Assembly: GCA_001180065.1 (NCBI GenBank)
Contig: CVSM01000045.1
Span: forward strand, 1 to 48,039
Source of the DNA: Candidatus Pelagibacter communis
GTDB taxonomy: Bacteria > Pseudomonadota > Alphaproteobacteria > Pelagibacterales > Pelagibacteraceae
Reading direction: 5' to 3'
DNA length: 48,039 bases
Shown: piece by piece, positions 32,877 through 35,097 of the stretch
Layout: each line of letters starts with the position of its first letter
How positions within the stretch are numbered: position 1 is the first letter of the stretch
Notes under the pieces: model-generated
Seen by the model: only the letters and a program-made list of their open reading frames with translations
Told to the model about the DNA's origin: nothing
Databases searched by the model: none
Translations under genes and position numbers: made by a program

Positions 32877-33109
32877 TAGGTATTATTTATTTACTATTTT
32901 CTAAAGTATTACATTAAGTAATATATATAAACTATTGTATTTATTGCATTTTTTAAATTTATTTAATTTTATGATTTTTTATATTATTTGATATTAAATC
33001 AACACATATATATTTAAAAAAAGTTAAAATTTTGGAATATAACGAAAAAAATCAAATAATCTTTAAAATAAAGGTTTTTTTAGCAATTCTGGATAATAAT
33101 TTCCTTTAA
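32877..33109. other. AT-rich intergenic stretch without a gene
   Basis: Together with the island that follows, this makes a 451-base gap between the EamA transporter and ogt. This part is almost entirely A and T, with no open frame of note and no clear hairpin-plus-U-run. It probably holds only the end of the transporter transcript. Confidence 0.6.
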
Positions 33110-33240
33110 AATGGGGGAGGCCAAAAGCATTGATACAGTTGAATAGTAGAGCGATGCGCTAATCGAATATACCATTTAAACGCCCATAGAGGGGTCTATT
33201 TTAGGTATAGTCTCATTTAAGGTACAACTGAAGCGTGAAT
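33110..33240. other. GC-enriched, foldable intergenic island
   Basis: A direct count gives 53 G/C in the 130 bases 33111-33240, well above the flanks. The stretch can fold as a three-way junction. CAGTTG (33136-33141) pairs with CAACTG (33225-33230). Inside lie a CGAT/ATCG hairpin (33152-33165) and a TATACC/GGTATA stem (33168-33173 with 33204-33209) capped by CCC/GGG. No pairing reveals the strand. A part of it (33122-33153, plus) resembles minus-strand 33694-33720 in the ogt leader. Possible structured RNA, recombination site or relic; no gene fits. Confidence 0.35.
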
Positions 33241-33305
33241 TAAATTATTTAGGAAAAAAATACAATAAAAGGGTGAAAAGTATTGATTTTACTAACTTTT
33301 TTAAC

Positions 33306-33329
33306 TTAAAAAAGCCTCAAAATGGGGCT
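33306..33329 (-). terminator. intrinsic terminator of ogt
   Basis: On the minus strand AGCCCC and GAGGCT form a six-pair stem (one G.U) around ATTTT, followed directly by six T. The TAG stop of ogt lies in the 5' arm of the stem. This is a compact, convincing rho-independent terminator. Confidence 0.75.
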
Positions 33330-33603
33330 AAATGGCTACATTTTCAGATCTAAGTAATTTGAGCTTTTTCTTAATTCCACCTCTTCCAGAGTAGCCTCCA
33401 AGGCTCCCATCAGACTTAATTACTCTGTGACAGGGTATTTTTGGGGCATAAGGGTTTTTAGCACAAGCATTAGCCACAGCACGTGCTGATTTCGGGCTTT
33501 TTATGCTTATTGCAACTTGTTTATAGGTCTTAACTTGGCCTTTTGGTATACTTTTTAAGTATCTCCAAACTTTTAATTGAAATTTTGTACCTTTGAGTGT
33601 CAT
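33328..33603 (-). CDS. minimal O6-alkylguanine/MGMT-type DNA methyltransferase
   Basis: A 91-residue protein consisting only of the C-terminal domain of the Ogt/Ada/MGMT family, which removes alkyl groups from guanine O6 by suicide transfer. The active cysteine is Cys58 in IPCHRV, with the helix-turn-helix RAVANACAKNPYAPK before it and GGYSGRGGIKKKLKLL after it. The frame stays open to an ATG at 33687, but those 28 codons run through a strong RNA hairpin and look non-native, so the ATG at 33603 is chosen. GC is visibly higher than in the neighbours, suggesting transfer. A structured leader precedes it and an intrinsic terminator follows. Confidence 0.85.
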   Translation of the reverse strand: MTLKGTKFQLKVWRYLKSIPKGQVKTYKQVAISIKSPKSARAVANACAKNPYAPKIPCHRVIKSDGSLGGYSGRGGIKKKLKLLRSENVAI

Positions 33604-33608
33604 TTGAG

Positions 33609-33786
33609 AAAAAAACCCCTGTTTCCTTGCACTTTTAAAGGTGCAAAGAACAGTTGTTTTGGCACGTCGTTGATGCGCTACCGCCATGCCACCCGCTCTA
33701 CATGTTCAGCGATGCTTTGCAGAGCTTTCTGCCCCCTGGAATTGTACCTCTCGGCTTTTGTCCAATTGGCCAGTTAAGAGTTGCCC
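33609..33786 (-). ncRNA. GC-rich structured leader or small RNA upstream of ogt
   Basis: In 33661-33780, 66 of 120 bases are G/C. On the minus strand the region folds into consecutive helices. The first is CUGG..CCAG with AAUUG/CAAUU and a GCC-GAGA-GGU tip (33736-33773). The second is GCUCUGCA/UGUAGAGC (33695-33725), the third GGCAUG/CGUGCC (33661-33690), and the last a 13-pair hairpin (33619-33653). That last hairpin is followed by GGG and seven U. Each helix contains a G.U pair on the minus strand that would be an A.C mismatch on the plus strand, so the minus strand is the likely RNA. The U-run ends five bases before the ogt ATG, the layout of a terminator-type regulatory leader. It could also be an independent small RNA. 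It matches no RNA class I know. Confidence 0.6.
33619..33653 (-). terminator. terminator-like hairpin just before the ogt start
   Basis: A 13-pair stem (CUGUUCUUUGCAC with its complement, one bulged A and one U.G) closes an eight-base loop. GGG and U7 (33609-33615) follow. If it forms, transcription would end about six bases before the ogt start codon. It would serve either as the end of a small RNA or as an attenuator. Confidence 0.6.
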
Positions 33787-33888
33787 CTTAATTCATAATC
33801 AATATAACAAGTTAAGATAAAAAGGGGTATCACTAAATAGTTGTTTTTTTTTTATATTAGTGCTTTTTGTGAATTACGGTGATAACTT

Positions 33889-34062
33889 TTATTTGGTTAA
33901 TAAAATCAAATAACTAACAAAAAATATAATTGCCATTATAGACAAGAAAATTGTGTTGAAGCTTTTTCCTGTGTTTCGATATTGAATAATGGTTAAAATA
34001 ACAAAACCAATTGAACTAATTAAAAACCATGCAGCAGGAATTTCTCCATCTATTGAACCCAT
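33889..34062 (-). CDS. 57-residue two-helix membrane protein
   Basis: An ATG-to-TAA frame whose product has a short acidic start (MGSIDGEIPAA), a first hydrophobic helix (about residues 12-26), a polar loop with QYRNTGKSFN, and a second helix (about 38-55). The composition is that of a real inner-membrane protein. The frame has a sharp start 81 bases from the divergent recombinase gene. No Shine-Dalgarno is visible. I do not recognise the family. It lies between the recombinase and the ogt leader, on the same strand as ogt, and may be cargo of the same accessory segment. Confidence 0.6.
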   Translation of the reverse strand: MGSIDGEIPAAWFLISSIGFVILTIIQYRNTGKSFNTIFLSIMAIIFFVSYLILLTK

Positions 34063-34143: not shown

Positions 34144-35097
34144 ATGAATGAGTTAACTACAGATCTAAAATCACTTCATGAGGCGACTTTAAATAACCTT
34201 AAAAGTTCTAAGGCAAATAACACTCTTAGAGCCTATAAATCAGATTTTAGAGATTTCGCGGCTTTCTGTGCTAAACACAGCTTAAATTCTTTGCCAACAG
34301 AGGCGAAAATAGTTTCATTATACTTAACTCACCTCTCTAAAAATTCAAAAATTAGCACATTACGAAGAAGACTTGTATCAATTAGTATGGTTCATAAATT
34401 AAAAGGCCATTATTTAGATACAAAACATCCAATTATTGTTGAAAATTTAATGGGTATAAAAAGAGTTAAAGGTAGCATTCAAAAAGGAAAAAAACCTATA
34501 TTAATCAGTCATTTAAAAACAATAATTAATGTAATAGATCAACAAAAAACTGAGGAAGTTAAGAAGTTAAGAGATAAATCAATTATCTTAGTAGGTTTTG
34601 GAGGTGGTTTTAGAAGAACTGAACTCATTTCAATTGATTATGAGGATTTAGATTTTGTATCTGAAGGGGTAAAAATTAATATTAAAAGATCAAAAACTGA
34701 TCAATTTGGTGAAGGAATGATTAAAGGACTGCCCTACTTCAATAATAAAATTTACTGCCCAGTTATAAATCTTAAAAAATGGTTAGAAATTTCAAAAATT
34801 AAATCTGGACCTATTTTTAGAAGATTTGCTAAAGGTTCAGCCTTAACAGAAAAAAGATTAACTGACCAATCTGTAGTTTTGTTAATTAAAGAATATCTAA
34901 ATCTTGCAGGAATTGAGAATAAAAACTTTGCTGGGCATAGCTTAAGATCAGGTTTTGCAACTGTGGCAGCGGAGTCAGGGGCTGATGAACGTAGTATTAT
35001 GGCAATGACTGGTCATAAAACAACACAGATGGTAAGAAGATACATAAGAGAAGCCAATATATTCAAAAATAACGCACTTAATAAAATAGAAATTTAA
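34144..35097 (+). CDS. tyrosine recombinase / phage-type integrase
   Basis: A 317-residue XerC/D-like site-specific recombinase. The N-terminal SAM-like core-binding domain covers about residues 1-100. The catalytic set is complete: Arg157 in GGFRRTEL, Lys in KRSKTDQ, His265 and Arg268 in HSLR, His291 in TGHKT, and the nucleophile Tyr300 in RRYIRE. It is not a chromosome-dimer Xer by context, since it stands alone beside accessory genes. It probably moved or rearranges this region. It meets the fucosyltransferase-like gene tail-to-tail with four bases of overlap. Confidence 0.92.
   Translation: MNELTTDLKSLHEATLNNLKSSKANNTLRAYKSDFRDFAAFCAKHSLNSLPTEAKIVSLYLTHLSKNSKISTLRRRLVSISMVHKLKGHYLDTKHPIIVENLMGIKRVKGSIQKGKKPILISHLKTIINVIDQQKTEEVKKLRDKSIILVGFGGGFRRTELISIDYEDLDFVSEGVKINIKRSKTDQFGEGMIKGLPYFNNKIYCPVINLKKWLEISKIKSGPIFRRFAKGSALTEKRLTDQSVVLLIKEYLNLAGIENKNFAGHSLRSGFATVAAESGADERSIMAMTGHKTTQMVRRYIREANIFKNNALNKIEI

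Follow-up and report, generated by a model that had tools for sequence, protein, structure and literature searches.

We identified a structured RNA on the minus strand of a SAR11 contig as a member of the IMES-2 family, and the best reading is that of a separate RNA gene, about 190 nt in length, with a putative promoter and terminator. The stretch of DNA analysed, here called the window, comprises 48,039 nucleotides of Candidatus Pelagibacter communis (contig CVSM01000045.1). SAR11 is a very abundant group in the sea. IMES-2, reportedly known only from environmental DNA, is now placed in titled genomes of SAR11 (Pelagibacteraceae). The IMES-2 of this bacterium is probably a folded RNA that acts in trans, most likely by binding a protein or a complex and not as an antisense RNA of the Hfq type. 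The stand-alone gene is the well-supported part of this account; the function offered for IMES-2 is a proposal. Its probable gene structure, together with relatives that do or do not carry IMES-2 and so form a natural comparison, makes that function testable.

Identity and fold of the RNA

A cmscan of the window against Rfam returned RF02035 (IMES-2) with 139.4 bits (E 3.8e-36; gathering cut-off 54.7), and the match covers model positions 1-141 of 141. Since this match is full length, the RNA belongs to a catalogued family. An earlier note on this DNA, made from the letters alone, had put it forward as a new RNA; judged by its sequence, it is the already known IMES-2. In a permissive Rfam scan of 33500-33900 (E up to 1), IMES-2 alone was reported and no second family appeared. 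The same note had set aside tmRNA, RNase P and SRP RNA, rightly, as none of them matched in that interval. Identity with 6S RNA was also rejected, given the lack of a model match in 33500-33900 and a different shape. The RF02035 entry is typed in Rfam as a gene. The family is said to go back to Weinberg and others, in Nature in 2009, and to marine environmental DNA. In the limited literature searched, IMES-2 is not known to have an assigned function.

The region is rich in G and C (66 of 120 bases at 33661-33780, against 26.9% across the whole window) and folds strongly on the minus strand, as the earlier note had said. Minus-strand folding of 33600-33790 gave -64.7 kcal/mol (z -3.45), a value that none of 200 shuffles equalled, whereas the plus strand folds in an ordinary way (z -0.73; 44 of 200 shuffles equally good). 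The putative transcript, 33800-33609, has a fold z-score of -4.13. The individual hairpins, the GAGA tetraloop, the last hairpin with its seven U residues and the five bases that separate these from the ATG of ogt (33603-33601) were all found where they had been described (Table 1). The extent of the domain was only partly right: the hairpins stand, and the box drawn around them was too short, as the domain begins near 33798 with one more GNRA-capped hairpin.

Table 1. Features of the IMES-2 locus and the adjoining gene, in window coordinates
Feature	Position	Strand	Basis
Conserved upstream element CAACTATTTAGTGATA, GTGATA at the -35 position	33828..33843	-	box conserved among loci
Extended -10-like element TGTTATATT (TGnTAnnnT)	33801..33809	-	read from sequence
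IMES-2 core (RF02035), four serial hairpins	33659..33798	-	cmscan, full-length match
Hairpin 1, GCAA (GNRA) tetraloop	33774..33791	-	model match and fold
Hairpin 2, symmetric internal loop and GAGA (GNRA) tetraloop	33729..33773	-	model match and fold
Hairpin 3, loop predicted to pair with the hairpin 4 loop	33695..33725	-	covariation, loop-loop pairing
Hairpin 4, loop GGUAGCGC, predicted partner of the hairpin 3 loop	33661..33690	-	model match, covariation
Hairpin 5, terminator-type	33619..33653	-	sequence and fold; paired changes in the stem among relatives, by eye
U7 run 3' of hairpin 5	33609..33615	-	read from sequence
ogt, 91-aa O6-alkylguanine-DNA alkyltransferase domain protein, downstream neighbour outside the RNA	33328..33603	-	PF01035, TIGR00589

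In nearly all of the 164 distinct cores collected, GNRA loops cap the first two hairpins. The GNRA pattern of hairpin 1 was found in 157 of them, and the loop of hairpin 2 was GAGA in 159, GCAA in one and GCGA in one, with three not parsed. Conservation without pairing is seen in some linkers, for example GGCAGAAA between hairpins 2 and 3. The cores are 140-143 nt long, and all 164 carry stops in all three frames; IMES-2 is therefore not coding, and the protein-coding reading was ruled out.

Covariation and loop-loop pairing

The helices were assessed in an alignment (A2) that kept 80 of the 164 distinct cores after thinning by identity; L168 and L169, which MAFFT had misaligned in A1, were left out. 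The loop-loop helix was assessed in an alignment (A3) of 62 of these cores and the cut-off sequence L076, 63 sequences in all. In A2, standard pairs filled 95.1% of the pair cells, against 32-42% for slid structures. Changes on both sides were seen in 26 of the 45 pairs, six of which belong to the loop-loop helix, and none of 500 shuffles reached as many. The covariation among relatives that the earlier note had asked for is thus present, and together with the fold z-scores it bears out the claim that the minus strand encodes a real structured RNA. All pairs of hairpin 1 were kept (100%), three of its seven with changes on both sides, and the stem of hairpin 3 had such changes at eight of eight pairs. 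In the stem of hairpin 4, one pair listed by the Rfam line is a mismatch in all 80 rows.

The loops of hairpins 3 and 4 are complementary to each other, usually as GCGCUA/UAGCGC. Elsewhere the two loops read GUACUA/UAGUAC, GCACUA/UAGUGC, GCACUU/UAGUGC (five of six pairs) or UCGCUG/UAGCGA. This helix was 97.6% paired in the 63 sequences, against 2-53% in slid controls. Three of its six pairs changed on both sides, a number that 2 of 500 shuffles reached; counted by cells, both-side changes occurred in eight, against a shuffled mean of 0.7 and with none of 500 shuffles as high. The count of further pair types in the helix was no higher than in shuffles (255 of 500). The outermost pair is broken in the window's own subtype, where U stands opposite C (7 of 80), and one further sequence breaks the same pair the other way. 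In L196 and L168 the loop of hairpin 3 is not self-complementary, so pairing from loop to loop fits better than self-dimerisation. These compensatory changes support the predicted IMES-2 helices and the pairing between the loops of hairpins 3 and 4.

Predicted limits of the gene

Genomic context was taken from 131 loci of the 140 matched genomes, nine being left out. All 131 loci have a box reading GTGAT, GCGAT or GTGTT at 33-36 nt upstream of the core; after base shuffling, such a box fell within the wider range of 28-42 nt in 36 of 2620 upstream stretches. A C stands ten bases before the box in all 83 distinct upstream strings. The -10-like element follows the extended form TGnTAnnnT in 95 loci and TAnnnT only in 33, with neither in 3 (a count made without a shuffled control). 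Downstream, a single hairpin of at least 9 pairs follows within 50 nt of the core in 129 of 131 loci, and its sequence differs between genera. A T-run after this hairpin, by the rule that we applied, was present in 106 of 131 loci, namely 93 of 100 with ogt next to the RNA, 11 of 29 after mnmA and 2 of 2 in genus g2. The 25 loci without a T-run are 18 of the 29 mnmA-type and 7 of the 100 ogt-type loci; mnmA-type loci often carry GGTTCTTCTCC or something similar in its place.

A generic scan with sigma-70 and terminator consensus patterns called neither a promoter nor a terminator on the minus strand of the locus. The upstream element was also searched for as the mark of a regulon: its exact pattern had two matches in 10 genomes, both of them IMES-2 itself. 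As the pattern missed four of the six RNA carriers among these genomes, this test was weak. We place the putative transcript start near 33796 and its end near 33609.

Neighbouring genes

The gene 3' of the RNA in the window encodes an alkyltransferase domain (PF01035, 109.9 bits on the enclosing 119-aa ORF; TIGR00589, ogt, 98.2 bits). The longest ORF of ogt, 33328-33687 on the minus strand, begins inside the IMES-2 RNA. The start at 33603 is likely the true one, and automatic gene callers may annotate a falsely long ogt protein at 33328-33687. On the other side of the RNA, 33889-34062 (minus strand) is predicted to encode a 57-aa protein, hydrophobic by eye and without a Pfam match. Small genes like this one stand before the RNA in many relatives and before ogt in some genomes that lack the RNA.

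The neighbours of IMES-2 change between genera. The set of neighbour labels overlooks ogt at part of the genus-g1 loci, so ogt was counted separately. It is found downstream, in the same orientation, at 100 of 131 loci; these are the 100 loci of genus g1, and in 96 of them ogt starts at most 64 nt from the core. The RNA follows mnmA in 29 loci, 26 of which have their next labelled gene in the opposite orientation, and lies between SNase and SRAP genes in the other two. None of these 31 loci outside genus g1 has ogt within 2.5 kb; a distance of 165-178 kb separates ogt and the RNA in genus g2 (G001 and G007). Conversely, 19 of 21 IMES-2-negative genomes that were asked keep ogt with a good match. 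IMES-2 is absent from the 420 nt upstream of ogt in these 19, and the G+C content of the last 250 nt before the gene is 0.20-0.33, against 0.43 in the IMES-2-positive genome G015.

Distribution

RF02035 matched 140 of 297 genomes of the order, at one place each and in 4 of 11 genera. It was present in 75 of the 150 genomes that are at least 90% complete. Genome G011 had no match; it is probably 'Ca. Pelagibacter ubique' HTCC1062, as its SOUL gene and its SAR11_0636 element lie where PMC2704228 tabulates them. In the class-wide set, 3 of 385 genomes matched, all of the window's own family. The order and class searches both used strict filters, which lose some weak matches. The conserved 19-base pattern occurs in at least 119 stretches of titled genomes, of which 118 are titled Pelagibacteraceae or Pelagibacterales; among the matches listed, all 118 of these also have a profile match. 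A Leeuwenhoekiella match (L096) to the pattern was judged to be chance, having neither a covariance nor a profile match. With a wider model (R2) there was a single additional match, a weak one in G225 (16.7 bits, E 0.015), which we took as chance because the translation of that stretch matches uracil-DNA glycosylase.

On an ogt tree (short, 91 columns and weakly resolved), the presence of IMES-2 required 6 changes, against 17.9 when shuffled. Presence is therefore clustered, a pattern that points to clustered inheritance with some gains or losses.

A possible replication terminus near the locus

Several observations concern the surroundings of ogt. The cumulative GC skew of the window peaks near 32-36 kb, where the GC skew changes sign. 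In the complete genome G003, sampled in 20 stretches, a noisy skew profile passes from mostly positive to mostly negative near 675-680 kb; ogt lies at 674.9 kb and a conserved 98-nt island at 675.3 kb, at the switch. Judged from these sequence profiles, the 32-36 kb region is probably a replication terminus.

In the window this unannotated island occupies 33134-33231 (plus strand), within 33060-33300, between ogt and the EamA gene and 3' of ogt. All 20 same-genus ogt loci that were scanned conserve it, including 19 that lack IMES-2, and it occurs in 200 of 251 sequences of a set that partly consists of duplicate genomes. The ogt loci of G001 and G007 did not show it. No Rfam family matches the island above a cut-off (best E 1), by eye it is not obviously coding, and the local consensus fold of 33060-33300 has zero energy on both strands, a result that may be partly technical. 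The island is a candidate Xer/dif-type site or other terminus element. At 34144-35097 (plus strand) lies a gene for an XerD/XerC-like tyrosine recombinase that scores below the NCBIfam cut-offs. Of ten genomes tested, seven had a single tyrosine-recombinase match (PF00589), and each of the eight genus-g1 genomes among them has a tyrosine recombinase no more than about 2 kb away from ogt or the RNA; a single-recombinase Xer system is possible. The ogt region looks like a terminus with an Xer-type site, but neither the window nor the stretches of G003 gave a good match to the dif consensus (at best 7 mismatches of 28).

Mode of action

Our proposal rests on sequence analysis, namely family membership, fold, covariation, loop-loop pairing, the upstream box, the change of neighbours and absence from close relatives; the transcript start and end, action in trans and protein binding are the parts that we infer. 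The RNA would fold into four hairpins and a terminator hairpin, two of them capped by GNRA tetraloops, and hairpins 3 and 4 would be joined loop to loop into a compact tertiary fold. The action of IMES-2 would then be in trans, most likely through binding of the folded RNA to a protein or complex. In the window's genus, ogt would be a downstream neighbour able to receive read-through and not a conserved target.

The earlier note had preferred a cis-acting leader, a riboswitch or attenuator in which the terminator hairpin would govern ogt, and had named a stand-alone small RNA with its own terminator as the alternative. The alternative has turned out to be the better-supported reading, with changing neighbours, the box upstream of every locus and the hairpin after nearly every core. 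The constant same-strand arrangement in genus g1, with ogt mostly within 64 nt and so with little room for its own promoter, speaks for a leader, and for this reason a local cis effect on ogt is possible in that genus. Against control of ogt as the role of IMES-2 stand the loci after mnmA, mostly facing an opposite-strand gene, and those between SNase and SRAP genes, the distance of ogt from the RNA in G001 and G007, and the 19 genomes that have ogt and lack the RNA. In addition, the minimum-energy and centroid folds, the two that were inspected, show no antiterminator, and Rfam types IMES-2 as a gene. As the neighbours change and ogt persists without the RNA, we reject the riboswitch or attenuator reading as quite improbable, and it is corrected here before others build on it.

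A classical base-pairing small RNA that contacts mRNAs by antisense would agree with the size, the terminator, the stand-alone gene and the conserved unpaired linkers. We consider it unlikely. Neither Hfq (PF17209) nor ProQ (PF04352) was matched in any of 30 relatives of the window's genome (16 with the RNA, 14 without), against 5 and 1 of 14 control genomes, and conserved helices, GNRA loops and the loop-loop pairing take up most of the RNA, which makes binding to a protein or complex in trans more likely than antisense pairing. A role in place of 6S RNA, by binding RNA polymerase, would suit a length of about 190 nt, one copy per genome and the lack of an RF00013 match in all 297 genomes of the order, searched with strict filters at the cost of some weak matches (4 of 14 controls matched). 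However, 6S RNA is one long rod with a central bubble, the hairpins of IMES-2 stand in series, and half of the near-complete genomes do without it, so that this role appears very improbable. The patchy presence, the three kinds of neighbourhood and the nearby recombinase in genus g1 could also suggest cargo of a phage or mobile element. Yet genomes that lack the RNA, G003 and G011 among them, also have the recombinase close to ogt, and presence of IMES-2 is clustered on the ogt tree. Viral carriage was rejected, as the sole match in viral contigs, an exact-pattern fragment of 21 nt (15.5 bits), was judged to be chance. We regard mobile cargo as extremely improbable.

Binding of a protein or complex in trans is thus the reading that we retain. 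A bolder version of it, which we hold to be doubtful, is that IMES-2 would represent a functional class that is new. In a compact tertiary fold, with two GNRA loops and a clasp between loops, the RNA would control a protein or complex in trans; its hosts have no recognisable Hfq, ProQ or 6S RNA, and even close relatives may do without it.

Comparison with known systems

Terminator-type riboswitches resemble the genus-g1 locus in the order of folded domain, hairpin, U-run and gene. Unlike in these systems, the gene downstream of IMES-2 differs from genus to genus and, in the mnmA type, mostly has the opposite orientation. Yfr103 of marine picocyanobacteria is likewise described as a structured marine ncRNA with a conserved element upstream of its start; it differs in being cyanobacterial, in its length of 290-328 nt and in having seven paralogs in one strain (PMC5069720). 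The SAR11_0636 sRNA is described as another probable stand-alone SAR11 RNA with unsteady neighbours (PMC2704228). It belongs to a separate Rfam family (RF01827), by which identity of the two was ruled out, and to a separate locus beside a SOUL-protein gene; we found the element in three of six SOUL loci scanned. The RNA of the window matches IMES-2 as catalogued (RF02035) over its full length, with all four core hairpins and the conserved loops present. The Rfam consensus line as printed leaves the loops of hairpins 3 and 4 unpaired, although the seed or founding paper may draw more, and ends before the terminator hairpin, whereas our alignments support pairing of these loops and the window locus carries hairpin 5 after the core.
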